DNA of 64,000 nucleotides, from contig NZ_CP022657.1 of assembly GCF_002243515.1 (NCBI RefSeq), positions 2,533,001-2,597,000 on the forward strand. The letters are read 5' to 3'. Positions within the stretch are counted from its first letter, which is position 1; the number at the start of each line of letters is the position of its first letter. Shown piece after piece: positions 35,956 through 64,000 of the stretch. The notes beneath the pieces were generated by a model, which did no database searches, was not told the DNA's origin, and saw nothing but the letters and a program-made list of their open reading frames with translations. Made by a program: the position numbers and the translations under genes. This DNA is from Tumebacillus algifaecis (lineage in GTDB: Bacteria; Bacillota; Bacilli; Tumebacillales; Tumebacillaceae).

Positions 35956-36205
35956 ATTGTTACTGCTCCCTTCGTGGAAACGTATTTTTCTGACTTAAAT
36001 AAAATATGTCTAGATTAAAATTTACTACCATTTCAATAGAAATCCACCGAGATTATTCAGTTGATAAAACATTATCGTAAAATAGTTATTATTCGTGATT
36101 TATAATCTATTTATTATATACAACCTTGTAATTTTATACAAGTATCTTCCGAAAAATAAAATATTCCTTTTCAGGAAAACAACACAATCCCTTCATAGTA
36201 TTCGT
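35956..36205 (-). promoter_or_regulatory. AT-rich leader of the NRPS-PKS operon
   Basis: About 250 bases of strongly AT-rich DNA directly upstream of the first operon gene (start at 35955), with no coding sequence. It resembles the leader at 10339-10700 in composition, though I see no clear shared motif. It should carry the operon promoter; I could not fix the -35/-10 positions. Confidence 0.4.
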
Positions 36206-45674: not shown

Positions 45675-45730
45675 GTTCAGAAAAGTGTTAAGATATGAAA
45701 AGACTCTATTCCAAAAGAAGGTAGTTTTTG

Positions 45731-46144
45731 ATGAACAGTTCAATCGACTTTTCACTCTTCGCGGGACAGATCGTGAATTCCGTTGAGTTCGACAATCTTT
45801 CCTCTCACTTAAAGTTTAGTTATGGCGCACTCCATATCGAGTGTTTTTGGAGAGTGCGCACTAGGGAATACATATTGTATGGAAAATATGATGCAGAAGC
45901 GTTGCCCCGTCTTAGGCAAGACCTGATGGGATGTACGGTGACCGCCGTTTTGCATCGCGAATTTCCGTCCGATCTGACGGTGGAATTGCGTGACGACCTG
46001 TATCTGGAAGTGATATGTTCCAGCACGCTTTCAGATAACTGGCAATTGACGAGGCCAGATGGGTTCTATTTAGTAGCCAGTCCGAGCGGGCGCTATACGT
46101 TTTGGGAACCAGAATTGAAAATAGATATCGCGGAGGATACGTAA
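45731..46144 (+). CDS. Hypothetical protein, first of a two-gene unit
   Basis: 137 residues from ATG 45731, with AAGAAGGT upstream. It is an acidic soluble protein with a beta-rich pattern and a C-terminal LYLEVICSSTLSDNWQLT and RPDGFYLVASPSG segment. The shape (a small domain with an E-N-W-x-L pattern near the end) reminds me of small immunity-type proteins, but this is only an impression. It is followed after 12 bases by the gene for a membrane protein. Confidence 0.65.
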   Translation: MNSSIDFSLFAGQIVNSVEFDNLSSHLKFSYGALHIECFWRVRTREYILYGKYDAEALPRLRQDLMGCTVTAVLHREFPSDLTVELRDDLYLEVICSSTLSDNWQLTRPDGFYLVASPSGRYTFWEPELKIDIAEDT

Positions 46145-46156
46145 GGAGGTGTTGGC

Positions 46157-46831
46157 TTGAATTTGCCGTTGCAAATTTATGATTTTATCGCCGTGCTCTT
46201 CCCTGGCGTCCTGCTGATGGCGATCATCGAGCGGGAAGCACCGTGGTTGCCATTTTGGGACAACAACATGGAAGTGGGAACGCTCGCTTTGATGCTGGTC
46301 GTCGGATACATCGTCGGACAGTTGTTGGCTCAGATCGCACGAATGATCGAAGCGGAGCCGCTGACACGGTGGATGTTGCAGTTCGGTCGCCGCAAGAGCC
46401 GTCGCAAAAAAGCGCTCGAAGGGCGTATGACCAAACTGAATTTTACCAATGAGATGAGTGAGGCGATCCTCTCTGCGCTCAGCGACTTTTATGGACGGCC
46501 CGTGCATCCCAATGACCCGGAACTGTTCAACCTCGCATTTTCTCCGGTGCAGGACAAGATGACCAAGCGCGATGTGTTCTTAGCCCTCGCCAACATGATG
46601 CGGTCGCTTGCGATCCTCGGGTTGCTGTACGCAGTCTACTTGGTCGGTGAAATGCTGCTCGGCCCCTTGTTGGGCCGCGAATTTGAGTATTATTCGATCC
46701 ACCTGCTGGTGCTGAGCCTGATCGGATACTATTTCTTCCGGAAAGGCTATCAACAGTACGAAGCATTTGCAGACAAGATCCCGTTCCTCGCCTTTCTGGC
46801 CTGGTATCGACAACAGAAGATGAAAGCGTAA
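46157..46831 (+). CDS. Hypothetical membrane protein, second of a two-gene unit
   Basis: 224 residues starting at TTG 46157; the start is set by a strong AAGGAGGTG eight bases upstream that begins right after the previous stop. TM segments lie about 8-26, 41-60, 147-170 and 178-197. Between TM2 and TM3 is a basic, probably cytoplasmic region (RRKSRRKKALEGR) of about 85 residues. No enzyme motif is visible and no family is recognised. Tight spacing with the upstream gene suggests that the two proteins work together. Confidence 0.75.
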   Translation: MNLPLQIYDFIAVLFPGVLLMAIIEREAPWLPFWDNNMEVGTLALMLVVGYIVGQLLAQIARMIEAEPLTRWMLQFGRRKSRRKKALEGRMTKLNFTNEMSEAILSALSDFYGRPVHPNDPELFNLAFSPVQDKMTKRDVFLALANMMRSLAILGLLYAVYLVGEMLLGPLLGREFEYYSIHLLVLSLIGYYFFRKGYQQYEAFADKIPFLAFLAWYRQQKMKA

Positions 46832-46860
46832 GAAACCGCCGTTTGCACGGCGGTTTCTTT
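46832..46860. terminator. Terminator between converging genes
   Basis: Ten-base stem GAAACCGCCG (46832-46841) and CGGCGGTTTC (46848-46857) followed by TTTGTTT on the plus strand. It ends the two-gene unit and could also stop the NRPS transcript coming from the right. Confidence 0.8.
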
Positions 46861-46868
46861 GTTTCCCG

Positions 46869-49800
46869 TTATGGAAGTTGAATCTCGGAGATCGACTGCT
46901 CCGAATCGGTTACGAAAGCGACCAGAATCGATTGGTATTGCTCGATGAGTCGTTGCGCCGTCGCGAGCAGGTAGAGATCGGTGCTGAACTCGAGGAACCC
47001 TTGCAAACGTCCGTCCGATTCGATCATGGTGATCGTCAGGTCGAATTTTGCCACTTCCATCTCCGGAGAGAGCACCGAAGTTGCCACTCCCGGCAAGTCA
47101 GGCTGTTGCAGCGGCATATTTTGCAAGATGAACAAGGCGTTATACAGCGCCGATTTGCTCTGCAACCTTTGTGAGATCAGGAACTGCGGCACCATCTGAT
47201 GCTCGTACGCACCGAGCGTGGATCGACGGATGCGTTGCAACAATTCGCTGACCGTCGGATCGCCAGAAAGATCGCCGCGCATCGGGACATTGCCGATAAA
47301 ATACCCGATCATCTCCTCCGTCTCCTGACGGTAGCGGTTCGCCACCGGGGAACCGACAACGATGTCGTTCTGACCGCTCAGGCGGGAAAGCAGCAGCTGG
47401 TAGGCGCTCATCAGCGTCATGAACAGCGTGACCCCCTGCCGAGCGCTCAGTTCGTTGATCCGATTGGTCAGTTCTGACGACAGCTCAAAATTCAAGGTCT
47501 TACCCCGCTTGCTCGACTGTTCCGGGCGCGGCAAGTCGGTCGGATACTGCTGGGATGCACTGCCACCCAACTGATGCTCCCAATATTGCAATTTTGCTTC
47601 CAACACATCCCCTTGCAACCAGTTGCGAAGCCAAGCCGAGTAGTCGGCAAACTGGATGTCCAGTTCCGGAAGCGGCGATTCCTGCCCTGTCGAATACGCG
47701 GTATAGAGCACAGCTAATTCTTTGGAGAAAACACCCATCGACCAGCCATCGGTAATGATGTGATGAATGGTTAGCGACCAAATGTAGTCCTCTTCACCCA
47801 CTTGCAGCAGTGCCGTGGAAAACAGCGGGCCAGTCGTCAGGTCGAAGTTGGTTTGCGCTTCTTGGCTGAGCAGTCGTTTCACTTCCGCTTCCTGCAGTTC
47901 GGCAGAGAGGTTGCGCAAGTCGTGGAACGCAATCGGCCAGTGACGATTCGGAAGAATTCGCTGGTAAACGCTGCCCGCTTCCTCGCCAAACACGGTGCGC
48001 AGCGATTCGTGACGTCTGACGATCTCGTTGAAGCTCTTCTCTAAACTGTCGATGTCGAGCGGTCCGGTCAAGCGCATCGCAGTTGGCACATTGTACGCCG
48101 GCGTGCCTGGGTCCATGCGGTCGAGGTACCAGACGCGCTCTTGGTTGAACGCAGTAACTAATTTTCCGCTTCTGTCGATCGGCACCATCGGCAAGGCAGA
48201 GACGTCATCACCTGCAGCCAGCACCTCAGCGATCGACTCGGCTAAAGCGGCCGCTGACGGTGCTTCGAACAGAACGCGCAATGGAAGTTGCAAATGGAAC
48301 GCCTCATTGACCCGCGAGATCGCTCGTGTGGCGAGCAGCGAATGACCGCCCAGTTCGAAGAAGCTGTCGAAAATGCTGACCTGCTCCAGTTTCAGCACGT
48401 CCTGCCAAATCTCGACTACCCGTTGTTCCCGCTCATTGCGCGGCGGCTGATACTCCCCTTCTCCGCCAAAGGAGGACCAGTCTGGCGTAGGTAGTGCTCT
48501 ACGGTCCACTTTGCCGTTTTGCGTAAGCGGCAAGGCGTTCAGGAACACGAAGGCGGAAGGCACCATATAGCTTGGGACACGCGCTTTCAGCGCGGCGCGC
48601 AGATCGCTTGCCGTCAGTTCTTCATTCGGATCAGTCACTACATAAGCGACCAGTTTTCCGTCCAGAGCGATGACGATGCTGTCCAGCACTCGCGCGTTCT
48701 GCCCGAGAATGCTTTCAATTTCGCTCAGCTCAATACGGAAGCCACGGATTTTTACTTGGTGGTCAAGACGACCGAGAAACTCGAGATTTCCATCGGCCAG
48801 ACGGCGCACTAGGTCACCCGTGCGGTATAGGCGGTCCTCCGGTTTTTCACTGAACGGGTGGGGCAGGAAGCGCTCAGCGGTCATTTCCGGCTGGTTGAGA
48901 TAGCCAAGTGCTACCCCATCCCCCCCGATATAAAGTTCGCCAGGCACACCGACCGGCAGTAGCTGGCCATTGGCGTCCAACACGTAGACTTGGGCATTGG
49001 CCACCGCCTGGCCGATCGGGACAACTTGCAGCTCTCGGTTCGCCTCGTGCACCTGATAAGCGGTCGCATAGATCGACCCTTCGGTCGGACCGTACAGGTT
49101 GGTCAGACGCGTTGTCGGCAGTTGGGTGCGCACTTTGTTGGCATGTGCGGCAGACATCGCTTCCCCGCCGATGATAAATTGCTTCACATTGCGCAGGTCG
49201 TCGATACGCTCGTCGAGCAATTGGTGGAACAAGGCGGTGGTCAGGAACAGCAAACCAACCTGCTCGTTTCGAATCACCTCGCCCAGCTCTTCAAGCGATG
49301 GCAGATACGGTGGGAAGATCACCAAGCGCATTCCGTTGAGCAGACTGCCCCAAATTTCCATTCCCGCGGCGTCAAACGAGATCGAGGAGAACTGCAAAGT
49401 TGTCTCACCCTCATGATAGTCAACCGTCGGGTTGTTCTTGAACAAGCGCACCAGGCCGCGGTGCGATACCATGACACCTTTCGGCTGGCCAGTGGAACCG
49501 GAGGTGTAGATCACGTGCAGAACATCGTCTGGGCTCAGCGTGCATGCCAGCTGGTCGGCACTTTCCGCCTCAAAGCGAGCGGCATCCGCATCGAGCAGGA
49601 TCACGCGTGCCTCATGGGATGGGAGTTTGGCGACGAGATGCGCTTGGGTCAACAACACACGTACACCAGAGTCCTGCATCAAATAGGACAAACGCTCCTG
49701 CGGGTAACTCGGATCGAGGGCGACGAGCGACCCGCCCGCTTTTAGCACAGCCAGCATCGCGGTGATCATCGCAAAGGAGCGCTCACAAGCCAAGCCGACG

Positions 49801-52800
49801 AGGTCTCTTGCCGACACGCCCTGTTGTTGTAGGTAGCGTGCCAAGCGGTTCGAGCGCTCATCAAGTTCGCGATAGGTCATATGTTGACCTTGGAATGTAA
49901 GCGCGATCGCATCTGGTGTCGCGGCCGCCTGCGCTACAAACAGTTGGTGAATGCATTGGTTCGGATAGTCGGAGCGAGTATCGTTCCAGCCGCTCAACAA
50001 CTGGTCGCGCTCCGCTATGGTAAGCATTGGCAAGTTGGTGATCAGTTGCTCCGGATGATCGGAAATCGCAACGAGCAGTGTTTCAAAATGCCCGATCAGA
50101 CGGCGCACCGTTTCGCGATCATACAGGTCGGTCGCGTATTCAACGGTGCCAGTTAATTTCCCATCGACTTCTTCCATCGACAGGGTCAGATCAAATTTGG
50201 CAAACGTCTCTTCGATCTCCACTGGCATCAGTTGCAGCCCTGGCAATTCAGCGCGGGTGAACGGCGCGTTTTGCATGGCGAACATCGCTTGCACCAGCGG
50301 CGGACGGCTCAAATCGCGCTCCGGTTGCAGTTCCTCGACCAATTTTTCAAACGGTACGTCTTGATGTTCATAGGCGGAAAGCGCCGTGCTGCGGACACGT
50401 TCGAGCAACTCAACAAAGCTCGGGGCGCCCGACAGGTCGGTGCGAAGGACGAGCGTGTTGACAAAAAATCCGATCAGATTCTCTGTCGCCAATTGATTGC
50501 GTCCCGCGATCGGTGAACCGACCGCAATGTCTTCCTGTCCACTCCAGCGCATCAGCAACATTTGAAACGCGCCGAGCAAGGTCATGTACAGCGTGACATC
50601 GTGCTGCTGGCTGATCGCATGCAGCTTGGAAGTCAAGTTTTCGGACAAGGTGAACCGTTCGGTTGCTCCGGCGTGTGTCTGCATGTGCGGGCGCGGACGA
50701 TCGGTCGGCAGTTGCAGAACGGGCAAGCTGTCCAGCGCTGTTCGCCAATAGTCGAGCTGCCCTTCCAACACGCCGCTATCCAACCAGTTGCGTTGCCAGA
50801 CGGCATAGTCGGCGTAATGTACGGGTAACTCCGGCAGAGCGGGGTCGCCCCCTGTCACAAATGATTCGTACAGCGCAGCAAACTCGCGCACGAAAATCCC
50901 CATCGACCAACCGTCAGTCACGATATGATGCATGTTCAGTACGAGCAGATGGTCCTGCTCGGCCGTCTGGAACAGGCGGAAGCGCACCAATGGCCCCGTT
51001 GTCAAATCGAACGGTGTCTCCATCTCGTCGCGGACCAAGCGGAAGACTTCAGCATCACTCAGCTGTTGGACATCTGCAAACGCGGCTTCGACCATTTGGG
51101 AGTCGGCGATCACTTGCGTCGCTAGCCCGTTTACCGCTGGAAAACTGGTGCGCAGCGCTTCATGGCGATCGACGATCGTTTGCAGACTGCGCGTCAGTGC
51201 GATCCGGTTCAACTCGCCCTGTAGGCGCACAGTCCCCGGCATGTTGTACAGAGCGGTGCCTGGGGCAAGCTGATCCAACACCCACAGCCGCTGTTGGGCG
51301 AATGAGAGCGGCAACCCTTCGGTGCGAGAAACACGAGTGATCGGCGGTGCTTGCTCTCGACTTGGCTGTTCGGACAGCACCTGTGCCAACTCGGCCACCG
51401 TCGGCGCTTGGAACAGCGTGCGCAGTGGGATCTCCTTTGAAAAAGCATTCTGTAGTCTGGAGATCACCTGCGTCGCGAGCAGTGAGTGACCGCCTATTTC
51501 GAAGAAGTTTTCCTCCACACCCACCGCCTGCTGGCCCAACACTTCGGCAAATACGGCGGCAACTTTTGCTTCCGCCGCGTTGCGCGGCGCGAGCAGCATC
51601 GCTTCTGCGATCAGGTTTTCCGGCTTAGGAAGCGCGTGGCGATCGATTTTGCCGTTGCGGTTCACCGGCATGGCTTCCAAGAACACAAATGCGGCTGGGA
51701 TCATATGCTCGGGCAGCGTTTCTTTTAGGTACCCGCGCACCTCCGCACTTGTAACCTCTTGATCTGGTTTGCTGACCACATAAGCGGCGAGGCTCTTGAT
51801 ACCTTTTTCGTTTTCGACGACGATCACTACCGTTTCCGAAACGGCGGGATGCTTGCTCAACACCATTTCGATCTCGCCAAGTTCGATGCGGAAACCGCGC
51901 AATTTCACTTGGTCATCAGTGCGTCCGAGGTATTCGATCCGCCCGTTCGGAAGCCAACGCCCGAGGTCGCCCGTCCGATAGAGGCGTTCTCCTTCGGCAA
52001 ACGGATTGGGGAGGAACTTTTCTGCGGTCAGATCTGGGCGGTTGAGATACCCACGCGCCAGTCCGACACCGCCGATGAACAGCTCGCCTTGCACCCCGAT
52101 AGGCACCGGACGCAGATTGCGGTCGAGGATATACGCCTTTTTGTTGCGCAGCGGACGACCGATGTCGGTGACAAGCAGTTCCGTCACATTTTGATAACGT
52201 GCATTTGTGGCGCTGACGGTGGTCTCTGTCGGGCCGTATTGGTTTTGCAAAACCCGCCCTTTCGACCAACGCATGATCACTTCCGGCATGACCGCTTCCC
52301 CACCGGTTGTCACGACTCGGAGGAACGGAAAGTCCGCTTCCGGAATCGCGGTCAGCACAGATGGCCCCAGATCGAGATGGGTAATTTTTTGCTCCTGCAA
52401 AAATTGAACCAGTTCCCACCCAGGCATCCGCACTTCCTCGTGTGCGATAACGAGTGTTGCGCCGACCGAAAGCGTCGTAAAGATCTCATGCACAGAAGCA
52501 TCAAAATTGATCGAGATAAACTGCAATACACGGCTGTCCGTATCAAACAGATGAGTCGGATCGCTGACCAGGTTGACAACACCGCTATGCTCAATCAAGA
52601 CGCCTTTGGGTCGCCCTGTCGAACCGGAGGTGTAGATCATGTAGGCCAAATTGTCAGCTTTGACCTCCGAGACGAGATTGCTCGCGTCTGCTTGCGCCAG
52701 GTCTTGGACAGTCGCTTCTTCATCGAGCACGAACAGAGGCGTCCCCGCGTCAGGCATTGCATCTCGATTTTTGGTCATCGTTACAATCAGCTGTGGGGTA

Positions 52801-55800
52801 GCGTCAGCGATCATGTACCGCAAGCGTTCTTCTGGATAATCCGGGTCAAGCGGCAGATAAGCGCCGCCCGCTTTGAAGACGGCGAGCATGGCGACGATCA
52901 GATCGTGCGAGCGCTCCATGAACAGTCCAACCACAATTTCAGGACCTACCCCCTGCTCTTGCAGTCGGCGTGCGAGACGATTGGCGCGCGCGTTCAGTTC
53001 CCGATAGCTCAGCACCTCGTCACGGAATTGCACAGCTGGATGCTCAGGACGAAGTTTTGCCTGCGCTTCGAACAGGTGATGGATGCATCCTGCTGGAAAT
53101 TCTTGCTCCTGATCGATCCACTCGCCAAGCAATTGCTGAGACTCGGCGATGGTCAACAGCGGCAATGCAGAGATCGTCTGTTCAGCATCTGCCAACACCG
53201 CATGGAGCAGTGTGGTGAAGTGTCCGACCATACGTAAAATCGTCGTGCGGTCGAACAAACGAGTGTTGTACTCAAACTCTCCGACTAGCCCCTGTTCCCC
53301 CTCTTCCAGGCTGAGCGTCAGATCGTATTTGGCCGTATTTGTTTCGACATGGACACGCTCCACTACCAACCCTTGCAAGCGCAGTTCGGAGGCGGGCGCA
53401 TTTTGCAAGACGAACATCGTTTGGAAGAGCGGCGCTACACTGCGATTGCGCTCTGGCTGCAACTCCTCGACCAGTCTCTCAAACGGTACTTCTTCATGTT
53501 CGTACGCTCCGAGCGCCGTTTCTTTGACACGACGCAGCATGTCTGCAAACGTCGGATCACCAGAGAAATCGGTGCGCATGACCAGCGTGTTGACGAAGAA
53601 GCCGATCAGCCTTTCTGTCTCGCTCCGGCCCCGTCCGGCGATCGGTGTGCCGACGAGGATGTCGTCTTGCGAGCTATACCTTGCAAGCATCGTTTGATAG
53701 ACACAAAGCAGGGTCATGAACAGGGTCACACCGTGACGCTGTGACAGCTCTTGCAGTTGCTCAGTCAACGCCGCATCGAATGCAAAACGCTCCACCGCCC
53801 CGTCGTGCGTCTGCACGGGCGGGCGCGGACGGTCGAGCGGAAGTTGTAACACCGGGAGTTCGCCGCCCAATTTGTCTTTCCAATAGTCGAGTTGACGCAC
53901 CAGCGCAGGTTCTGCCAAACGCTGTTGTTGCCACGCTGCGTAATCGGCATATTGCACCGGAAGCTCTGGCAACAGAGCCGCTTCTCTGCGCACCGACGCA
54001 TCGTACAGCGCGACAAGCTCTTCGATAAACAACCCCACCGACCAGCCGTCAAACGCGATGTGGTGAACGTTGAACAGCAACAGGTGCTCCGTTTCGGTCA
54101 AGCGCAGCAGTGCCAAACGAAGCATCGGCCCTTGCGCAAGATCGAACGGCTTTTGGCCATGCTCTGCTGCCAAACGCGCCGCCGTTGCTTCACGTTCCTC
54201 CGCCTGCAAGGTGCTCAGATCGACAAGCGGCACCTCCACTCCGACCAACGCTGCCACTTGTTGCACCGCTTGCCCGTCCTGCTCAAGATAGGTGGTGCGC
54301 AATACTTCATGCCGCTCCCAAATGGCTTGCAGACTGTGTTTCAACGCCTCGACATCCAGCGGGCCGCGCAGTCTGAGCGCGTGCGGGATGTTATAAAATG
54401 CCGACTGCGGATTGATCTGCTCCAACATCCACAACCGCTGTTGAGCTGAAGAAAGCGGCAATTGACCGACGCGTGAAATCGGTACGATCGCATGCAGCCT
54501 TTCTCGCTCCGCTTCCAATTCCAACAGGCACTCCAGCTTTTCCGAAAACTCGGCCACCGTCGGTGCTTCAAACAGCGTGCGTAGCGGCACTTGCACACCA
54601 AACGCTTTGTTCACCCGCGCCACGACCTGTGTCGCCAGCAACGAATGGCCACCAAGCATGAAAAATTGATCGTGCACACCGACTTTTTCCACGTCAAGCA
54701 CATCCGCCCAAACGGACGCAACCCGTTCCTCGACCGACGTGCGCGGTGCGAGATACTCCCCCTCGTCTTGCAAGGAAAAATCGGGAGCAGGCAACGCTCG
54801 GCGGTTGATCTTGCCGTTCGCAGTCAGCGGAAGTTCGGCAAGCATCACAAACGCAGACGGCACCATATGCTCCGGCAATTTCTCCCTTACGAACCCGCGC
54901 ATCTCACTCGGGGTGATGGTTGCATCTCGCTTCGTCACCAGATAGGCGGCCAGACGCTTATCGCCCGGTCGCACCTCGCGTGCCACGACGACCGTCTCCA
55001 CCACGGCCGGATGCTTGGCGATCACCGTTTCAATCTCGCCGATCTCAATGCGGAACCCGCGAATTTTCACCTGATTATCGATCCGTCCTAAAAACTCCAG
55101 CAGACCATCTGGACGGTAGCGCACCAAGTCACCCGTCTTATACAGCCGCGCACCCGGTTTCCCCGAAATATGATCGGGAATGAAGGACTGCGCCGTGCGA
55201 TCCGGATTTTTTAAATAGCCGGGCCCGACCCCGATTCCGCCGATGTGCAGTTCACCGGGCACGCCAAGCGGTACCAACTGCATCTGTGCGTCGAGCACAT
55301 ACAGTTTCATATTCGGAATCACGCGGCCGATCGAAATATTGGTCACCTCTTGACCAGGCGGCTCTTTGATAAAATGGTGCGTCACATCATCGGAGCACTC
55401 TGTCGGCCCATACGCGTTGATCAGCCACGCGCTCGGATAGAAGGCCAGCCATTTTCGGCACAGCTCCGGCGGCAGGACTTCTCCGTTCGGGATCATCCAG
55501 CGCAGCGCCGACAGATCGGGCGGCGTTTCCCGCTCTGTCACTTCATCGATCATCGCGCGCAACAAAGAAGGCACCGTCTCGACGACGGTCAATTGTGTCG
55601 CTTCCATCTCATCAAGTTGTCGAGCCGGGTCAAAGGCCACCTCGTCTGGCAAAATGTGCGTCACAGCTCCCGCCATCCAGCCAGTCAGCAACTGCCACAT
55701 CGAGATGTCAACACACTGGGAGGAGTTTTGCGCAATCCGATCTGCTGGCGTCACCTGTAGTTCATCGACTTTGGCAAGCAAGTGGTTGAGCATTCCTTTG

Positions 55801-58800
55801 TGCTCGACCTGTGCTCCCTTAGGACGACCTGTCGATCCGGAAGTGAAGATCACATACGCCACATCATCGGGCGTCAAGCCGCTTTTCACAGGCGCTGTAC
55901 TCGCAAGCCTGATCACGTCTTGATCCGTATCCAAGCAGACGACCTGCGACGTGTGAGCAGGCAATTTTGCTACGAGGTCAGAGGTTGTCAGCATCACTTG
56001 CGGCTCGGTGTCCTCCACCATAAAGGTCAAGCGCTCCAGCGGGTATTTGGGGTCGAGCGGGACATAGATGCCGCCCGCCTTCAAGATGGCCAGCACCGCC
56101 ACAGCCCACTCTAGATCGCGCTCGGCAAAATAGCCGACAGCAAGCCCTGGCACAACGCCTTTCTCTTGCAGATGGTGGGCCAGTCGATTCGCCTGCTCCT
56201 GCAACTCGCGATAGGACAGACGCGCCCCTTTGAATATCACCGCCGCATCATTCGGTGTTTTGTCTGCTTGCTCATCGAACAGATCGATCGCTGTCAAGTG
56301 ATGCGGGTACGGTGCGACTTTGTCATTCAAACCATATAAAAGCCAATTCTTCTCCGCTTCTGTCAACAGCTCAAGCGTCGCCACCGGACGTTTTATAGCT
56401 TCGGGAAGACCGCTTAACAGCGTGGTGAAATGTTCTGCCATCCGCTGTGCCGTCTCCGGTAAAAAGAGGTCGGTGTTGTACTCGATGCGCCCCGTCAGCC
56501 CATCGTCCGTCTCCGCCACCGAAAGTGCCAGATCGGACTGCACAAAGCGCTGTTGCAATTCGACCGCTTCCATCACCAGATCGCCAAATGGCAACTGAGT
56601 GCCACCGTCGCCCAATGCAAATTTTGCAAAGTCTGCGCCCAGCTCAGCCAGATGCGATTTCTGGTAGGTGAACATCACCTGTACCAGCGGCGGATCGCTC
56701 GGGTCGCGGTCGGCGCCCAGTTCCTGCGCCACCAGCGGGTACGGATACTCCTGATGCGCCAGTGCCCCAAGCACTGTACGACGCACTTGTTGCAAAAAGG
56801 CTTCAAAGGTCGGTCGTCCTGAAAAATCGGCGCGCTGCACGACCGGGTTGACAAAATAGCCGATCAACTCGGCGTTCTTTACGCCGTTTCGCCCAGCTGT
56901 CGGTGAGCCGACCACCAATTCGTCCTGCCCGGTATAGCGGTGCAAAAGAACTTGGAACGCAGCCAAAAACACCATGTGCAAGGTCACTTTTTGCTCTTTG
57001 GCTAAACTCCGCAGTGCCGTAGTCAACTGCGGCGACACCTGAAAGGGTACTGCGGTTCCCACGAACGTCAGCTCCGGTGGACGAGAGAAGTCGGTCGGCA
57101 GGTTGAGCACCGGAGCCTTCCCCTGCAATTGCTCGATCCAATACTCTCGCAAATCGCGTCCGCGTGTCCCGGAGAGCAGCGCCGCTTCCTCCTGCACATG
57201 ATCGGCAAAACTGCGAGATACGGCAGGCAATTCTGCCCCGCCATAAAGCGCTTGCAATTCTTTGACCAACACGCCAAGCGACCAGAAGTCGGACACGAGA
57301 TGATGCACGGTCAGCAACAGCACAGCTTCCTGTGCCGAACGCAGGAACAGCATGGCGCGCAACGGGAACTCCGTCTCTAACGCAAAGGGTTGGTCGCCAA
57401 ATGTCTGCAGTTGGTTCTGCAACTCCTGCTCCGACCACGTGGATGCATCGACGACGACAACCGATACTTCGTCCGCACGGCTCACAGAAAAGACTGGCTC
57501 CCCTGCTTGTTCCGTAACGAAGGCGCGTAGAAGTGGATGGCGCTCCGCTAACGCTTCGAACGCCGCGCGGAGGCGCTCCACCTCATAGGGTCCGGTCAAG
57601 CGAGCCGCCCTCGCGATATTATACGCCGCACTCTCAGGAGCCAACCGCTGCAAATACAAGAGCGCCCGCTGCCCCTTGTTCAGAGCGATCGTATTCGAAG
57701 CGGCACTCTTAGCCTCAAGCTCCTGCACGTCTGCCCCGTTTTCGATCCGCTGAAGCACCTGCTCGGCGATGCCCGCAACGGTCAACCCATCAAGCAGTTC
57801 AACCAACGGCAGGGCAACGCCAAATTCCTCTTCCACACGATGTTGCAGTTCGACTGCCGCGATCGAATCCATACCGAGCGACGTCAGGGGCTGGCTGGCA
57901 TCGAGCCCTTGCGTGCCAAGGCGCAGCGCTTCTGCCGCCTTCGCCGCCAGATAAGCGGTCAACACAGCCTGCGCTTCTCCGTGCGGCAGGTTGCAGAGCT
58001 CCTCACAGCTTATCTGCTGCGCCACCTGTCCTGTCATCTCTTTTGCAGCTGCCACGCTCTGCTCCGCCTGGCCCAACACGCTTCCGTACACCACATCGAG
58101 CGCCTCTTGTAAAAAGCGTTCCTGGCACAGATGGCGCTGCACCTTCCCAGACGACGTTTTCGGAATCGAAACAGGTTTCAGCAACAGGACAGCATACAGT
58201 TGGAGGTCATGCTCTTCCGCCACCGCCTGCCGGACTGCACGCACCACCGCTTCCAGTTCGGCCTTGCGGAAAGCACGCTCAATCTCCTGCACCACGACCA
58301 CGCGCTCTTCGCCGTCCACGTCAACCGCAAAAGCGGCGCCGTTGCTGTTCTTCACCGCCGGATGTGCCGACTGCACAGCAAACTCCACATCCTGCGGATA
58401 AATGTTGCGTCCGCGGACAATCATCAGATCCTTTTGCCGTCCCGTGATATACAGTTCACCGTCTTGGACAAAACCCAAGTCTCCCGTTCGCAAAAACGGA
58501 CCTTCGCCCGAAGCCAGACGAGCCGCAAACGCTTGCTCCGTCTGCTCGCTGCGCTGCCAGTAGCCCCGTGCCACACTCGGCCCAGCGACCCAGATTTCAC
58601 CGACGCTACCCGCTGCACAGGGCAATGCTGTCTCCCCATCGACGACCAGCACCGTCTGTCCGCTCCCAGTCAGGCGTCCGCTGCTCACCATCTCCTGACC
58701 GTCACCTTCGACCGCTCGATGCTCCTTCAAGTGCTCTCGATCGAATGTCCGCACGATTGGAGCTTCTCCTTTCAAGCCCCCCGAGACAAACAGGGTGCCC

Positions 58801-59759
58801 TCAGCCAAGCCGTAGCACGGATAAAACGCTTCCTTCTTAAATCCGCACGGCGCAAAAAACTCTGCAAACTTCTGCAAGGTCTCAGCCCGCACCGGTTCAG
58901 CACCTGTAAACGCGATCTGCCACGAACTCAAGTCGAGCGTATCACGCTGCTCCGGTGTGATTTTCTGCAAGCACAGTTCATAGGCAAAATTCGGCCCGCC
59001 GCTGACGGTCGCTTTCGTGCGCGAAATCGTCTCCAACCATCGCAGAGGCTTCTGAATAAAATCGACAGGTGCCATCAGCGTGACCGGATAGCCAGTAAAG
59101 AGCGGCTGTAAGATTCCACCGATCAGTCCCATGTCATGATAAGGGGGCAACCAGATCACACAACGATCTTCCGCCGACGTGCCAAAACTCCGTTCGATCT
59201 CTCCGAGGTTGTGCAACAGATTCCCGTGCGTCAGCATCACCCCTTTAGGTAGCGAGGTGGACCCCGACGTATACTGCAAAAACGCCAAATCGGCCGCCGA
59301 CGTCACAGGCGGCACATATTGCGCTTCCATCTCGTCGAGCGCGTTCATCGGCACCAGCCATTCCAGCTCTTGCAACTCACGGCGATCACCAAAACGAGTC
59401 TCCACGCTTCTCAAAATGGCCGAGGTGGTCAAGGCAAACCGCGCCTGCGCATCCTGCACAACCGCCTGTAAGCGACTCAAATTTCCGTTTGCGCGTGGCG
59501 GATAGGCCGGCACTGCGATCACACCTGCGTATAAACATCCAAAAAAGGCAGCGATATACTCCATCCCCGGTGGATAGAGCAACAAGGCGCGCTCCCCAGT
59601 AGCTCCTCGTTGTTGAAGCAGTGCCGCCCATTGCCGAGCCTGACGGTCCAATTCTCCATACGTCATCTTTTGATCCGATCCATCTTCCGACACAAACGCA
59701 TATGCCGCTCGTTCGCCTTGCTCCGCAGCCCTCCGTCGAAGGAGTTCTGACACCGTCAT
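46869..59759 (-). CDS. Lipopeptide synthetase FAAL-ACP-(C-A-PCP)x3 with a terminal C domain
   Basis: 4296 residues from ATG 59759, which has GGGGG nine bases upstream (an upstream TTG at 59780 is less likely). Domains: FAAL 1-590 (TSGSTSLPKG near 165, PKTSSGKVQRH), ACP with GMDSIAAVEL (Ser about 631), C1 with HHLVSDF near 818, A1 (TSGSTG near 1307), carrier, C2 (HHIAFDG near 1899), A2 (near 2379), carrier, C3 (HHIVTDG near 2942), A3 (near 3422), carrier, and a last C domain (about 3850-4296, HHIITDG near 3997) ending at SISEIQLP with no A, TE or R domain after it. A pockets by hand alignment: DIWEINADD (acidic, perhaps a basic substrate), DAHDTGQVS and DAMFIGLIY, none assigned. It should build an acyl-tripeptide; the last C domain would either release it or pass it to another protein. 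Confidence 0.95.
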   Translation of the reverse strand: MTVSELLRRRAAEQGERAAYAFVSEDGSDQKMTYGELDRQARQWAALLQQRGATGERALLLYPPGMEYIAAFFGCLYAGVIAVPAYPPRANGNLSRLQAVVQDAQARFALTTSAILRSVETRFGDRRELQELEWLVPMNALDEMEAQYVPPVTSAADLAFLQYTSGSTSLPKGVMLTHGNLLHNLGEIERSFGTSAEDRCVIWLPPYHDMGLIGGILQPLFTGYPVTLMAPVDFIQKPLRWLETISRTKATVSGGPNFAYELCLQKITPEQRDTLDLSSWQIAFTGAEPVRAETLQKFAEFFAPCGFKKEAFYPCYGLAEGTLFVSGGLKGEAPIVRTFDREHLKEHRAVEGDGQEMVSSGRLTGSGQTVLVVDGETALPCAAGSVGEIWVAGPSVARGYWQRSEQTEQAFAARLASGEGPFLRTGDLGFVQDGELYITGRQKDLMIVRGRNIYPQDVEFAVQSAHPAVKNSNGAAFAVDVDGEERVVVVQEIERAFRKAELEAVVRAVRQAVAEEHDLQLYAVLLLKPVSIPKTSSGKVQRHLCQERFLQEALDVVYGSVLGQAEQSVAAAKEMTGQVAQQISCEELCNLPHGEAQAVLTAYLAAKAAEALRLGTQGLDASQPLTSLGMDSIAAVELQHRVEEEFGVALPLVELLDGLTVAGIAEQVLQRIENGADVQELEAKSAASNTIALNKGQRALLYLQRLAPESAAYNIARAARLTGPYEVERLRAAFEALAERHPLLRAFVTEQAGEPVFSVSRADEVSVVVVDASTWSEQELQNQLQTFGDQPFALETEFPLRAMLFLRSAQEAVLLLTVHHLVSDFWSLGVLVKELQALYGGAELPAVSRSFADHVQEEAALLSGTRGRDLREYWIEQLQGKAPVLNLPTDFSRPPELTFVGTAVPFQVSPQLTTALRSLAKEQKVTLHMVFLAAFQVLLHRYTGQDELVVGSPTAGRNGVKNAELIGYFVNPVVQRADFSGRPTFEAFLQQVRRTVLGALAHQEYPYPLVAQELGADRDPSDPPLVQVMFTYQKSHLAELGADFAKFALGDGGTQLPFGDLVMEAVELQQRFVQSDLALSVAETDDGLTGRIEYNTDLFLPETAQRMAEHFTTLLSGLPEAIKRPVATLELLTEAEKNWLLYGLNDKVAPYPHHLTAIDLFDEQADKTPNDAAVIFKGARLSYRELQEQANRLAHHLQEKGVVPGLAVGYFAERDLEWAVAVLAILKAGGIYVPLDPKYPLERLTFMVEDTEPQVMLTTSDLVAKLPAHTSQVVCLDTDQDVIRLASTAPVKSGLTPDDVAYVIFTSGSTGRPKGAQVEHKGMLNHLLAKVDELQVTPADRIAQNSSQCVDISMWQLLTGWMAGAVTHILPDEVAFDPARQLDEMEATQLTVVETVPSLLRAMIDEVTERETPPDLSALRWMIPNGEVLPPELCRKWLAFYPSAWLINAYGPTECSDDVTHHFIKEPPGQEVTNISIGRVIPNMKLYVLDAQMQLVPLGVPGELHIGGIGVGPGYLKNPDRTAQSFIPDHISGKPGARLYKTGDLVRYRPDGLLEFLGRIDNQVKIRGFRIEIGEIETVIAKHPAVVETVVVAREVRPGDKRLAAYLVTKRDATITPSEMRGFVREKLPEHMVPSAFVMLAELPLTANGKINRRALPAPDFSLQDEGEYLAPRTSVEERVASVWADVLDVEKVGVHDQFFMLGGHSLLATQVVARVNKAFGVQVPLRTLFEAPTVAEFSEKLECLLELEAERERLHAIVPISRVGQLPLSSAQQRLWMLEQINPQSAFYNIPHALRLRGPLDVEALKHSLQAIWERHEVLRTTYLEQDGQAVQQVAALVGVEVPLVDLSTLQAEEREATAARLAAEHGQKPFDLAQGPMLRLALLRLTETEHLLLFNVHHIAFDGWSVGLFIEELVALYDASVRREAALLPELPVQYADYAAWQQQRLAEPALVRQLDYWKDKLGGELPVLQLPLDRPRPPVQTHDGAVERFAFDAALTEQLQELSQRHGVTLFMTLLCVYQTMLARYSSQDDILVGTPIAGRGRSETERLIGFFVNTLVMRTDFSGDPTFADMLRRVKETALGAYEHEEVPFERLVEELQPERNRSVAPLFQTMFVLQNAPASELRLQGLVVERVHVETNTAKYDLTLSLEEGEQGLVGEFEYNTRLFDRTTILRMVGHFTTLLHAVLADAEQTISALPLLTIAESQQLLGEWIDQEQEFPAGCIHHLFEAQAKLRPEHPAVQFRDEVLSYRELNARANRLARRLQEQGVGPEIVVGLFMERSHDLIVAMLAVFKAGGAYLPLDPDYPEERLRYMIADATPQLIVTMTKNRDAMPDAGTPLFVLDEEATVQDLAQADASNLVSEVKADNLAYMIYTSGSTGRPKGVLIEHSGVVNLVSDPTHLFDTDSRVLQFISINFDASVHEIFTTLSVGATLVIAHEEVRMPGWELVQFLQEQKITHLDLGPSVLTAIPEADFPFLRVVTTGGEAVMPEVIMRWSKGRVLQNQYGPTETTVSATNARYQNVTELLVTDIGRPLRNKKAYILDRNLRPVPIGVQGELFIGGVGLARGYLNRPDLTAEKFLPNPFAEGERLYRTGDLGRWLPNGRIEYLGRTDDQVKLRGFRIELGEIEMVLSKHPAVSETVVIVVENEKGIKSLAAYVVSKPDQEVTSAEVRGYLKETLPEHMIPAAFVFLEAMPVNRNGKIDRHALPKPENLIAEAMLLAPRNAAEAKVAAVFAEVLGQQAVGVEENFFEIGGHSLLATQVISRLQNAFSKEIPLRTLFQAPTVAELAQVLSEQPSREQAPPITRVSRTEGLPLSFAQQRLWVLDQLAPGTALYNMPGTVRLQGELNRIALTRSLQTIVDRHEALRTSFPAVNGLATQVIADSQMVEAAFADVQQLSDAEVFRLVRDEMETPFDLTTGPLVRFRLFQTAEQDHLLVLNMHHIVTDGWSMGIFVREFAALYESFVTGGDPALPELPVHYADYAVWQRNWLDSGVLEGQLDYWRTALDSLPVLQLPTDRPRPHMQTHAGATERFTLSENLTSKLHAISQQHDVTLYMTLLGAFQMLLMRWSGQEDIAVGSPIAGRNQLATENLIGFFVNTLVLRTDLSGAPSFVELLERVRSTALSAYEHQDVPFEKLVEELQPERDLSRPPLVQAMFAMQNAPFTRAELPGLQLMPVEIEETFAKFDLTLSMEEVDGKLTGTVEYATDLYDRETVRRLIGHFETLLVAISDHPEQLITNLPMLTIAERDQLLSGWNDTRSDYPNQCIHQLFVAQAAATPDAIALTFQGQHMTYRELDERSNRLARYLQQQGVSARDLVGLACERSFAMITAMLAVLKAGGSLVALDPSYPQERLSYLMQDSGVRVLLTQAHLVAKLPSHEARVILLDADAARFEAESADQLACTLSPDDVLHVIYTSGSTGQPKGVMVSHRGLVRLFKNNPTVDYHEGETTLQFSSISFDAAGMEIWGSLLNGMRLVIFPPYLPSLEELGEVIRNEQVGLLFLTTALFHQLLDERIDDLRNVKQFIIGGEAMSAAHANKVRTQLPTTRLTNLYGPTEGSIYATAYQVHEANRELQVVPIGQAVANAQVYVLDANGQLLPVGVPGELYIGGDGVALGYLNQPEMTAERFLPHPFSEKPEDRLYRTGDLVRRLADGNLEFLGRLDHQVKIRGFRIELSEIESILGQNARVLDSIVIALDGKLVAYVVTDPNEELTASDLRAALKARVPSYMVPSAFVFLNALPLTQNGKVDRRALPTPDWSSFGGEGEYQPPRNEREQRVVEIWQDVLKLEQVSIFDSFFELGGHSLLATRAISRVNEAFHLQLPLRVLFEAPSAAALAESIAEVLAAGDDVSALPMVPIDRSGKLVTAFNQERVWYLDRMDPGTPAYNVPTAMRLTGPLDIDSLEKSFNEIVRRHESLRTVFGEEAGSVYQRILPNRHWPIAFHDLRNLSAELQEAEVKRLLSQEAQTNFDLTTGPLFSTALLQVGEEDYIWSLTIHHIITDGWSMGVFSKELAVLYTAYSTGQESPLPELDIQFADYSAWLRNWLQGDVLEAKLQYWEHQLGGSASQQYPTDLPRPEQSSKRGKTLNFELSSELTNRINELSARQGVTLFMTLMSAYQLLLSRLSGQNDIVVGSPVANRYRQETEEMIGYFIGNVPMRGDLSGDPTVSELLQRIRRSTLGAYEHQMVPQFLISQRLQSKSALYNALFILQNMPLQQPDLPGVATSVLSPEMEVAKFDLTITMIESDGRLQGFLEFSTDLYLLATAQRLIEQYQSILVAFVTDSEQSISEIQLP

Positions 59760-59844
59760 GTAAAAACCCCCAATTACCAAAGTAGTCTTGATTTCAATTC
59801 TACACGTTGCAAAAATACACCTGCCTTAAAATCTTTATTTCACA

Positions 59845-59876
59845 AAAAGAAAAAACCGGCTCTGCTACGCCGGTTT
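59845..59876 (-). terminator. Terminator after the right-hand NRPS gene
   Basis: Stem AAACCGGC (59853-59860) and GCCGGTTT (59869-59876), with an A-rich run on the plus strand at the left that becomes a T-run in the minus-strand transcript. It separates the right-hand gene from the FAAL gene, so the two are probably separate transcription units. Confidence 0.8.
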
Positions 59877-59901
59877 CTTCCTAAGCCTCTGCGGAAAAAT
59901 T

Positions 59902-62900
59902 TTACGGAAGCGAAATTTCGGAGATCCGTTGCTCCGGATTATCCAGAAACGCCTGCACGATCGTTTCGAAATGCAGAAGCATCCGGTCGATCGTTTCCCG
60001 TTTAAACAGTTCGGTACTGTATTCGAACGATCCGACGAAGTGCCCTCCCGCATCCATCATCGTGATCGTAAAATCAAACTTCGACCCTTCCAGTGCCCCA
60101 TCGACTCCATGCACCGTGAGGCCAGGCAGTTCCACATCGGAAGTTGGGAAGTTCTGCAACACGAACATGCTTTGATAGAGCGGTGTTTGACGCTGCAACG
60201 CTTCTGAGATCAGCACCTGCGGAATCATCTGGTGCTCAAAAGCGCCAAGCGTCGCCGCCCGGGTACGACGCAACAAGTCCCGCACGGTCGGATCGCCAGA
60301 GAGATCACCCCGAATCGGCGCGTTGCCGATGAAGAAGCCGATCAGATTCTCCAACTCTTTGCGATAGCGACCAGCGATCGGCGAGCCGACCGTGATATCA
60401 TCGCCACCACCATTGCGCAATTGCATCGTCTGGAACGCGCTGAGCAGGTACATGAACGGCGTGATCGCATTTTGATCGCAGAACTGCTTGATTTGCGCCG
60501 TCAATTCTTCTGAGAAGCCAACTCGAATCCGGTCGCCCGTCTTCGCTGGCACTTCCGGACGTGGGAAGTCGGTCGGGTAGCTCGGCGGCTTCGCGTCGCC
60601 GAGGTGGTTGAGCCAGTATGCCATCTTGCGATCAAAGAACTCCCCTTGCATCCAGCCCCGCTGCCAGGCGGCAAAGTCTGCGTATTGGATGGTCAGTTCA
60701 GGCAACGGTGATGGCTGTCCGGACACATAGGCCGAATAGAGTACGGCAAATTCGTGGGAGAACACGCCCGTCGACCAGCCGTCGGTGATGATGTGATGCA
60801 TATTTAGAATCCAAACGTGTTCTTCCTCATCGAATTTTAACAGCGCGCTGTACATCGGCGGCTCCGCTTCCAAGTCGAAGTTGCGACCCGCTTCGATTTC
60901 CATGTACCGTGCGACCTCCGCTTTGCGCTGCTCTTCGCTCAAGCCGGGCAGTTCGATCACGGTGAGCGGTGTCCAGTCTGGTGCCAACACGTTCTGACGC
61001 ACGCCTTCACCCCGATCATACAAGACGGTGCGCAACGACTCGTGGCGACTGATGATCTCATTGAGCACTTTCTCCATCACCAAAACATCGAGCTTGCCTT
61101 TGAAGAGCATACCCGTCGGAATGTTGTAAATCGGCGTGCCCGGCGCCATGCGATCGAGTTGCCAGACTCGCTCTTGACCGAACGAGCAGACCAGTTCACC
61201 ATTGCGGGAGACCGGAACAATCGGCGGGAAGTCCTCTTCTCGTTTATGGGTGAGCGCCACATCGATTTGCTCGGCAAGTTCTGCCACGGTCGGAGCTTCG
61301 AACAGGAGACGCAATGGCAATTGCACGTCGAACGCTTCATTGATCCGCGAAATGGTCTGTGTGGCCAACAGCGAATGACCGCCCGTCTCAAAGAAATTGT
61401 CACGGATGCCAATCTTCTCATGACCAAGCACGATCTGCCAGATCTGGCTCAATCGTTCTTCGACCTCGTTGCGCGGCGCTTCATACTGTCCCTTCAGCCC
61501 ATAGTCGGCCGAATCGGGTGCAGGCAGCGCACGGCGGTCCACCTTACCGTTTTGCGTCAATGGCAGTTCGGAAAGCAGCACGAAAGCGGACGGCACCATG
61601 TAGTCGGGCAACAGATTTTTGAGATAGGTGCGCAGTTCGGACGCCATCGTGTCGTTGTCATCACCTACCACATAAGCGACCAGACGCTTGTCACCAGGGC
61701 GGTCTTCGCGGGCCAGCACGACGACAGCCTGCACGGACGGGTGCTCGCCAAGAATGCTTTCGATTTCCGCCAGTTCAATGCGGAAACCACGAATTTTCAC
61801 CTGATGGTCGATTCGACCCATGAACTCCAAGCTCCCGTCGGACAGGTAACGCACCAAGTCTCCCGTCTTGTACAGCCGCGACCCGTCCGCTTTGAACGGA
61901 TTGGCGATAAACATCGCTTCGGTCAACTCTGGGCGATTCAGATAGCCGCGTGCCAATCCCGGCCCTCCGACATGCAGTTCGCCCGGTACACCGACCGGAA
62001 GCGGTTGCAGATGGCGATCGAGCACGTACAATTCGTTGTTGTGAATGGCCGGGCCGATCGGCACCACCGCCGCCACCTGATCGGGATCGTTCATCCAAAG
62101 CGTGGCCGAAGCGACCGTATTCTCCGTCGGACCATACGCGTTGGCGAGCACGCAACCGGGCATTTTTTGTAAAAACTTCTTGGCGTGCGGTGCAGACATC
62201 ACGTCACCGCCGACCGAGAGCAGTTTGAGGTGGCCGATGCTGTCCAGATTTGCGTCTGCCAACTGCGGCAACAGGCCAGAGGTCAACAGCGCCACGGTCA
62301 CTTTTTCCTCAGCAAGCACGCGCACCACTTCATCGATCGTCGGTGTTTGCGCCGGAAACACGACCAGTTTCGCGCCATTGAGCAAGGCGCCCCACACTTC
62401 TGGCGTCGCCGCATCAAACGAGATCGCCGCCAGTTGCAAGAACACTTCATCCGCTCCGAACATCAGGTAGTTGCTGTTTTTCACCAATCGCGCGACCCCG
62501 CGATGCGGGATCAGCACGCCCTTCGGACGGCCTGTCGAACCTGACGTGTAGATCACGTAGGCAAGATGGTCGGGCGTCAAAGTCACATTGGGCGCCAACT
62601 TGCTCTGTGCCTCCACCTGCGACCAATCGCGGTCAAGACAGATCACCTCGGCACGATGTTCCGGCAACTCGGCCAGCAAACGCTCCTGTGTCAACAACAC
62701 CTTGGCCCCGCTGTCTTCCAGCATGTAGGCGAGGCGTTCTTGCGGATAGGACGGGTCGAGTGGCACATACGCCCCACCTGCTTTGACAATCCCAAGCATT
62801 CCGATGACCATCTCGAGCGATCGCTCCACGCAGAGAGCAACGAGCACATCCGGCCCGACACCTTTTTGCTGCAGCATGTGTGCTAGCGCGTTCGCCCGTT

Positions 62901-64000
62901 CGTTCAACTCATCATAGGTGAGCGTTGCTCCGGCAAAACTCACAGCCACCTTGTGGGGAGAGCATGCCACCTGTTCCGTAAACATCTGTGGAATCGTCAT
63001 GTCCTGCGGGTACTCGACCGCATTTTGATTCCACTGGACCAGTTGTTGGTGCAACTCCTCCTCCGTCAACAGCGACAAGGTCGCAATCTCTACATCGGGG
63101 TTGGCAACAATCGCTTCGATCAGTCGGGTGAAATGCCCGGTCATCCGCGAGATCGTCGCAGAATCAAACAAATCGACACTGTATTCAAAGTTCGCAACGA
63201 TCCCGTGCGGGTGCTCGCTCATCGTCAGGTTAAGATCGAATTTGGCTGTGTTGAGGCCTGTCTCCAGGCCACTGATCGTCAGTTCGGATACTTTCTGCGC
63301 ACCCACAGTTGCATTTGTCAGGCTGAACATCGTTTGAAACAAAGGCGTGTAGCTCAAGTTACGCTCTGGCTGAATCTCCTCGACCAGCTTTTCAAACGGC
63401 AGATCTTGATGCGCGTACGCCTCCAGCGCCGTGGTGCGCACACGCTGCAACAGCTCGCGGAAGGTCGGTCGATCGGACAGGTCGGTGCGCATGACAAGCG
63501 TGTTGACAAAAAAGCCGATCAGATCTTCGATCTGCCCGATGTTGCGCCCCGCGATCGGAGAACCGATGGTGATGTCATCCTGCCCCGTGTAGCGGTGTAG
63601 CAACACCGTATAGGCTGCCAGCATCATCATGTACATCGTGACGTTTTCCTGTTTTGCTCGTTCGCTCAACTTATCGATCAGCTTTTTAGGCAACGTAAAC
63701 GGCATGAAGGCCCCGCGGTGATTCGGCACCGCCGGACGCGGGCGATCGGTTGGCAGTTGGAGCACTGGCGGATGATCGCCCAACTTCCCTTTCCAATAGG
63801 AGATCTGCCGTTCTAGCTCTTCACCTGCCAGATGCTGCATTTGCCAGTTGGTAAAATCGACATACTGGATCGGCAATTCAGGAAGCGGAGAAGGCAAGCC
63901 CCTGGAAAATGCTTCGTACAGCACCCCCACTTCCTTTTGCATCACCCCGCACGACCAGCCGTCGGAGATGATATGATGCATCGTCAGCAGCATGACATGG
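59902..64000 (-). CDS. NRPS, C-terminal part: C-A-PCP and terminal C domain (5' part outside window)
   Basis: Open from the right edge to the TAA at 59902; the true start lies beyond 64000. Seen here: part of a C domain with HHIISDG near 63950-63970, an A domain with TSGSTGRPKG near 62540, a carrier with GGHSLLATQ near 61380, and a terminal C domain (61230-59902) with an intact HHIITDG near 60790, ending at RISEISLP. The A pocket reads DAPLSGAVA by hand alignment and is not assigned. The terminal C domain is clearly related to that of the neighbouring FAAL gene and differs from the internal C domains in the same ways. No TE or reductase follows. Confidence 0.93.
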   Translation of the reverse strand, partial: HVMLLTMHHIISDGWSCGVMQKEVGVLYEAFSRGLPSPLPELPIQYVDFTNWQMQHLAGEELERQISYWKGKLGDHPPVLQLPTDRPRPAVPNHRGAFMPFTLPKKLIDKLSERAKQENVTMYMMMLAAYTVLLHRYTGQDDITIGSPIAGRNIGQIEDLIGFFVNTLVMRTDLSDRPTFRELLQRVRTTALEAYAHQDLPFEKLVEEIQPERNLSYTPLFQTMFSLTNATVGAQKVSELTISGLETGLNTAKFDLNLTMSEHPHGIVANFEYSVDLFDSATISRMTGHFTRLIEAIVANPDVEIATLSLLTEEELHQQLVQWNQNAVEYPQDMTIPQMFTEQVACSPHKVAVSFAGATLTYDELNERANALAHMLQQKGVGPDVLVALCVERSLEMVIGMLGIVKAGGAYVPLDPSYPQERLAYMLEDSGAKVLLTQERLLAELPEHRAEVICLDRDWSQVEAQSKLAPNVTLTPDHLAYVIYTSGSTGRPKGVLIPHRGVARLVKNSNYLMFGADEVFLQLAAISFDAATPEVWGALLNGAKLVVFPAQTPTIDEVVRVLAEEKVTVALLTSGLLPQLADANLDSIGHLKLLSVGGDVMSAPHAKKFLQKMPGCVLANAYGPTENTVASATLWMNDPDQVAAVVPIGPAIHNNELYVLDRHLQPLPVGVPGELHVGGPGLARGYLNRPELTEAMFIANPFKADGSRLYKTGDLVRYLSDGSLEFMGRIDHQVKIRGFRIELAEIESILGEHPSVQAVVVLAREDRPGDKRLVAYVVGDDNDTMASELRTYLKNLLPDYMVPSAFVLLSELPLTQNGKVDRRALPAPDSADYGLKGQYEAPRNEVEERLSQIWQIVLGHEKIGIRDNFFETGGHSLLATQTISRINEAFDVQLPLRLLFEAPTVAELAEQIDVALTHKREEDFPPIVPVSRNGELVCSFGQERVWQLDRMAPGTPIYNIPTGMLFKGKLDVLVMEKVLNEIISRHESLRTVLYDRGEGVRQNVLAPDWTPLTVIELPGLSEEQRKAEVARYMEIEAGRNFDLEAEPPMYSALLKFDEEEHVWILNMHHIITDGWSTGVFSHEFAVLYSAYVSGQPSPLPELTIQYADFAAWQRGWMQGEFFDRKMAYWLNHLGDAKPPSYPTDFPRPEVPAKTGDRIRVGFSEELTAQIKQFCDQNAITPFMYLLSAFQTMQLRNGGGDDITVGSPIAGRYRKELENLIGFFIGNAPIRGDLSGDPTVRDLLRRTRAATLGAFEHQMIPQVLISEALQRQTPLYQSMFVLQNFPTSDVELPGLTVHGVDGALEGSKFDFTITMMDAGGHFVGSFEYSTELFKRETIDRMLLHFETIVQAFLDNPEQRISEISLP

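Follow-up and report, generated by a model that had tools for sequence, protein, structure and literature searches.

Adjacent NRPS proteins of Tumebacillus share a terminal condensation-domain subtype that may release their chains to a carrier-free nucleophile

Terminal condensation (C) domains that use a free amine have been established experimentally, as described for Kj12C of the rhabdopeptide synthetase from Xenorhabdus (PMC6195595) and for domain C13 of the glidonin synthetase GdnB from Schlegelella brevitalea. In the latter, the chain is moved from the last loaded T domain to putrescine, and the same account presents releasing C domains as tools that, by module swapping, can equip peptides with amines (PMC10587159). 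Fungal terminal C domains (CT domains) are described as releasing the chain by macrocyclisation or hydrolysis, with a blocked acceptor channel (PMC11546977). Here we analyse a locus in Tumebacillus where two adjacent NRPS proteins, A and B, each end in a C domain, hereafter Ct. A search of the literature on Tumebacillus and nonribosomal peptides, judged by title, returned no published study of these proteins.

Each of the described systems resembles Ct in part. By description, Kj12C likewise ends its line and has no C-terminal docking domain, but it stands alone as a protein, carries a docking domain at its N-terminus and works mostly with phenylethylamine (PMC6195595), whereas Ct is fused behind a PCP. 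GdnB C13 is a proposed parallel, also by description, although a partial A domain, a T domain and a TE follow it (PMC10587159) and nothing follows Ct. The fungal CT domains, a further proposed parallel as terminal C domains that release a chain, are described with the features given above, whereas the relatives of Ct within its own genomes are LCL-like domains. Ordinary LCL-like C domains (Txo2, 6p1j; Txo1, 6oyf; TycC, 2jgp) share the fold and the HHxxxDG motif with Ct but lack its C5 motif FIGN, its C6 motif HQMxPQ and its 5-residue deletion before C7, and Ct has no A domain after it. Releasing terminal C domains are already known, and Ct is most likely a variant among them.

The window, the whole stretch of 64,000 nucleotides analysed here, covers G000:C1:2533001-2597000 of a 4,516,965-base genome, and the features of the locus are collected in Table 1. 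The segment 59902-61230 on the reverse strand is the C-terminal part of the open frame of B, which continues over the window edge; the start of the gene, expected to the right of position 64000, was found there. By residue, B reads C(17-458)-A(481-828)-PCP-C(1079-1505). Both proteins terminate 0-1 residue past their last C domain, the domain search found no TE in A or B, and none is present at the A/B locus. The next NRPS frame to the right of B starts at about window position 124300. The adenylation pocket windows of the third A domain of protein A and of the A domain of B differ when read against a reference pocket, with no residue assigned. Frames in the gene tables were picked by longest-frame choice.

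Table 1. Features of the A/B locus, of the candidate partner P3 and of a second class of terminal C proteins (window positions unless a genome is named)
Feature	Position	Strand	Basis or remark
Protein B, NRPS C-A-PCP-Ct, 1506 aa	59902..64000 in window; start codon past window edge, at 64422	-	frame and genome sequence
B N-terminal C domain, LCL-like, TMHHIISDGWS	63046..64000, extends to 64374	-	domain search
B adenylation domain	61939..62982	-	PF00501
B PCP	61267..61458	-	PF00550
B Ct, residues 1079-1506, HHIITDG intact; protein ends with domain	59905..61188	-	profile, alignment, model, tree
B Ct, C5 departure FIGN (internal domains: FVNT)	60322..60333	-	alignment
B Ct, C6 departure HQMIPQ (internal domains: HQDxPF)	60217..60234	-	alignment
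Protein A, NRPS FAAL-ACP-(C-A-PCP)x3-Ct, 4303 aa counted from first TTG; inner ATG later (MTVSELL)	46869..59780	-	
A Ct, residues 3877-4303	46872..48152	-	profile, alignment, tree
Hairpin in the gap between B and A, immediately behind B, 3' arm T-rich	59848..59881	-	folding
Hairpin immediately behind A, 3' arm T-rich	46830..46859	-	folding
224-aa membrane-like gene, hydrophobic segments	46157-46831	opposite to A	convergent; no Pfam match
138-aa gene, weakly DUF6188-like	45728-46144	opposite to A	convergent; DUF6188 below cut-off
363-aa NAD_binding_4 reductase-like gene, upstream of B	64601-65692, beyond window edge		
P3, starts with C-terminal half of a C domain, then A domain	23722-35955; half domain 35206-35955	same as A	PF00668 186-455
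Terminal C class lacking the second His	G000 1104275-1111351, 2437059-2443436; G001 642908-655645; G002 4057071-4069826		

Sequence analysis of the two ends bears out what the preliminary description had read from them. HHIITDG, FFIGNAPIRGDLSGDPTV and HQMIPQVLIS, which it placed in the terminal domain of the right-hand protein, B, are all present, and A and B stop at the near-identical points it gave, ISEIQLP and ISEISLP, respectively. The claim that both ends depart in the same way from the internal domains also holds: of the 406 C-type domains above 350 aa that the fetched stretches of the three genomes contain, just six, the Ct domains of A and B and the four orthologous ones, carry FIGN or HQxxPQ. 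The active-site motif HHI[IV]TDG is intact in all six. The Ct domains of A and B are 50% identical to one another, whereas neither exceeds 44.8% with any other C domain of the genome (130 domains compared, alignments of at least 300 residues). Set against 296 internal domains, the six Ct share class-fixed changes of N (98%) to G, together with T to N, in C5, which turn FVNT into FIGN; of F (95%) to Q and V (90%) to S in C6; and of F (96%) to V between the two. Also common to the six are L to W five residues before HH and the deletion before C7, which removes an Arg found in 295 of the 296 internal domains. The census of C domains relied on our own profile, built from 30 domains of this genome, because the PF00668 listing (best 111 of 143 candidates) omits the Ct of B; that domain matches PF00668 over profile positions 4-446 of 456.

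The model of the Ct of B (mean pLDDT 89.1) reveals the two-lobed C-domain fold, and its closest matches are the ordinary C domains named above (Z 43.9 and rmsd 2.1 over 424 residues to 6p1j). Among the near ties of the fold search was the HtmB2 C-domain structure of the hangtaimycin synthetase (8z0q; Z 41.8, 28% identity), and the available literature on the hangtaimycin system yielded nothing on this domain. No fungal CT domain was noticed among the best 50 fold matches, an absence that is uninformative. A published analysis assigns the C5-C6 region to the donor T:C interface and judges it informative for C-domain subtype (PMC10212144), which fits Ct being a subtype. Given that location, however, the Ct changes need not signal a new acceptor and may concern the donor side.

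Phylogeny, the comparison proposed beforehand for both terminal domains, places the six Ct in one clade with local support 1.0 in a tree of 405 C-type domains from the three genomes, in which 30 other terminal domains were included. An earlier tree with 296 internal domains only also recovered this clade. Ct falls within the LCL-like domains of its own genomes, and its nearest neighbours in the larger tree are two terminal C domains with DELF-like tails (weak support, 0.27). We rejected an epimerisation-type end domain, as E-like end domains score 103-156 on our profile and the six Ct 471-551, and also a single class uniting Ct with the remaining terminal C domains of this genome, which fall elsewhere in the trees.

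The pair is conserved in both of the other Tumebacillus genomes analysed (G001 and G002), where orthologues of A (75-76% identity) and B (72-73%) adjoin in the same order, with the same ends and with gaps of 100 and 64 bases. Between species, Ct is conserved at 73-77% in A, where the other domains range over 58-84%, and at 73-74% in B, where they range over 69-78%. Each of the six proteins has 0-1 residue after Ct. An A-PCP-TE after this point in relatives, named beforehand as the mark of truncated ends, was looked for in G001 and G002 and is absent after all six Ct of the three genomes. Truncation of A or B is contradicted by synteny, intact frames and even conservation across domains. The paired C-domain ends are real, conserved and not truncated, and the proposal of a functional class stands, with both ends kept in two of two other genomes of the genus and the six Ct in one clade.

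Outside these genomes we find no clear counterpart of Ct in the searches made. Among 121 genomes including its own, matches under strict cut-offs (best 14 candidates or fewer per genome) came from three, all Tumebacillus and with two per genome; among 398 genomes of the phylum, strict cut-offs on the best four candidates or fewer per genome gave the own genome only. A contig scan of at least 596 stretches from at least 354 relatives, with 75 loci kept, showed the FIGN...HQ pattern only in the T. avium locus among the matches listed. The subtype is most likely restricted to Tumebacillus as far as searched; with strict cut-offs and best candidates only, relatives of Ct outside the genus are possible.

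The terminator that the preliminary description placed between B and A is only partly borne out: a hairpin is present, but the consensus terminator scan after B is negative in this genome and positive in G001 and G002. Here the T-run of the hairpin pairs into its stem, and hairpins of differing sequence lie at the same place in the two relatives. Folding places hairpins with a T-rich 3' arm behind both stop codons, that of B and that of A, in all three genomes, whereas the consensus scan after A, on A's strand, returned none in any of the three.

To place Ct among other chain ends, we compared all 28 proteins whose last domain is a C domain scoring above 300, taken from the NRPS stretches fetched for the three genomes: the six A and B proteins, four stand-alone C proteins (492 aa or less, tail-less) and 18 other long ones. 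An acidic, Phe-containing, DELF-like tail follows the C domain in 15 of these 18 and in none of the six Ct, a rule formulated post hoc, after the tails had been inspected. Since the other three long proteins and the four stand-alone ones are also tail-less, absence of a tail does not by itself define the Ct class. Next to the tailed proteins lies, in eight cases, an NRPS gene whose product opens with a partial or low-scoring C domain and continues with an A domain, and in three a non-NRPS gene; in the remaining four the next gene is not on that strand or absent from the table. From its sequence, a tailed terminal C domain followed by a partial-C and A protein looks like an intersubunit docking junction, and the available part of the docking-domain literature (PMC9113145) makes no mention of it. 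Tailed and tail-less terminal C domains in the same genomes offer a testable sequence rule for hand-over versus release.

Our favoured explanation, to which we give slightly less than even confidence, is that A and B form one conserved locus in which each protein ends in the same chain-terminating C-domain subtype and releases its chain to a carrier-free nucleophile. The FAAL-ACP of A would load a fatty acid and its three modules would add residues, after which its Ct would take the acyl-tripeptide off the last PCP and join it to a nucleophile that no downstream NRPS carries, most likely a free amine from general metabolism. As a one-module protein with the same Ct, B would finish its own chain with the same or a similar nucleophile. 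We infer that Ct is catalytic and releasing and that its acceptor is carrier-free. Release is supported by (I) the architecture and the intact motif, (II) the kept ends and the single clade, and (III) the lack of a docking-like tail, of a TE and, in the searches described below, of a conserved A-first partner. That the subtype is both lineage-restricted and used by the two NRPS proteins to pass chains to one and the same carrier-free nucleophile is a more tentative proposal, somewhat unlikely in this full form. If true, the pair would make lipopeptides of different length with one common C-terminal group, using neither a TE nor an NRPS-loaded acceptor. Assembly lines lacking a TE are easily mistaken for broken or split ones, and a two-gene line with one shared unusual end domain is a natural pair for finding the acceptor determinants of a releasing C domain.

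The role of B bears directly on the first alternative. B starts with an ordinary LCL-like C domain and therefore needs an upstream donor, and only A adjoins it; the readings left are that there may be two products capped with the same group, or that A may feed B in line. In the latter case, the acyl-tripeptide would pass via the Ct of A onto the aminoacyl-PCP of B, or via the first C domain of B, and the Ct of B would release an acyl-tetrapeptide; the Ct of A might also release early, giving two chain lengths. The adjoining genes in three of three genomes, with A as the sole NRPS that stays beside B, favour such a line, and the rhabdopeptide synthetase is described as yielding peptides of 2-8 residues (PMC6195595). 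However, the C-terminus of A is tail-less, just 16 residues precede the first C domain of B, and the Ct of A would duplicate that domain. We regard hand-over from A to B, which the sequence would permit, as unlikely; the earlier suggestion that the two proteins may join each other's products stays a suggestion, and both proteins are tail-less.

The absence of a TE behind a terminal Ct would also suit release without an outside amine, by macrocyclisation onto a side chain or by hydrolysis, the two routes described for the fungal CT domains (PMC11546977). However, a tree that holds no fungal sequences puts Ct within the LCL-like domains of its own genomes, and the FAAL is expected to N-acylate the chain of A, which would make head-to-tail closure unavailable and counts further against this route. 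We consider it rather improbable.

Alternatively, Ct might be one half of a split module and condense onto an A-PCP protein in trans. Junctions split between a C and an A domain are known from mycosubtilin, a junction where a terminal C domain precedes a protein with a partial or weak C domain and then A recurs eight times in these genomes, and the domains closest to Ct in the tree are tailed terminal ones, at the weak support given above. The partner in this genome would be P3, encoded on the same strand as A and 11 kb downstream of it. The first 250 residues of P3 have an 86% start-to-start match in G001, but there P3 is 87 kb from A. In G002, where A and B are both present, a whole-genome search with the same residues gave nothing start to start and none above 39% among the matches listed; what matched were the C-terminal halves of ordinary C domains internal to other proteins, and the top-scoring match had 37% identity. 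Hits were obtained for 12 A-first or partial-C-first proteins of this genome, and in no case did both G001 and G002 (fetched NRPS stretches) offer an orthologue matching start to start at 60% or more. No intact stand-alone A-PCP partner was seen among the best 150 of 183 carrier-protein candidates of the own genome, which include an 83-aa frame, probably the fatty-acid ACP, as well as frames 412 and 729 residues long that contain pieces of A-PCP. A and B also lack the DELF-like tail. The split module is improbable, and since no conserved NRPS acceptor for Ct was found, a carrier-free nucleophile, internal closure or hydrolysis would be the simpler reading.

That A and B are relics which lost an A-PCP-TE and now carry dead ends would agree with the tail-less ends, but it is largely refuted and very improbable, as both ends are kept in three genomes with the active-site motif intact and Ct is about as well conserved as the other domains.

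The 224-aa and 138-aa genes are kept beside A in both relatives (79% and 66% identity in G001, 81% and 70% in G002), and a link of the two to the A/B locus is possible; they may leave room for a dedicated partner. Being convergent to A, they are unlikely operon partners, and the suggestion that A and B use the same small release partner is not supported by their position on the opposite strand. The 363-aa NAD_binding_4 gene was considered as a reductive release partner and rejected: it is about 80% conserved but lies about 9 kb (G001) and about 21 kb (G002) upstream of B, and thus belongs to the region and not to the A/B pair. Downstream of A the genomes differ, with other genes and then P3 in this genome, and a separate FAAL...TE megasynthase about 7 kb on in G001 and G002. 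The NRPS genes left of position 36000 were likewise rejected as part of the A/B line, as they do not adjoin A in G001 or G002.

Several further observations concern the surrounding NRPS repertoire. The three genomes, of about 4.5-5.2 Mb, are very rich in NRPS genes: the fetched stretches by themselves encode 130, 135 and 141 C-type domains of more than 350 aa (G000, G001 and G002, respectively). Tailed terminal C domains for which the following NRPS opens with a partial or weak C domain and then A are found at 2478555-2485388 in G000, at 570003-572744 and 572865-579845 in G001, and at 1472285, 1482605, 3940941, 3945563 and 3952597 in G002; the tails overall are of the kinds DELF, DELFI and DFDF. 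A second class of terminal C domain lacks the second His of HHxxxDG (HPIAYD or HAIVYD) and carries a D(E/D)LF or IDLF tail (Table 1). The gene next to its member at 1104275 in G000 matches PF00144 beta-lactamase, and about 5 kb past the terminal-C NRPS at 4057071-4069826 in G002 lies a second copy of the 224-aa gene (44% identical, at 4074564). Lastly, G000 carries an A-PCP frame and a C-A frame at 2514797-2519874 where G002 has one A-C-A protein (901427-906502; A part 86% identical), which from the sequences is probably a frameshift or break in this genome.
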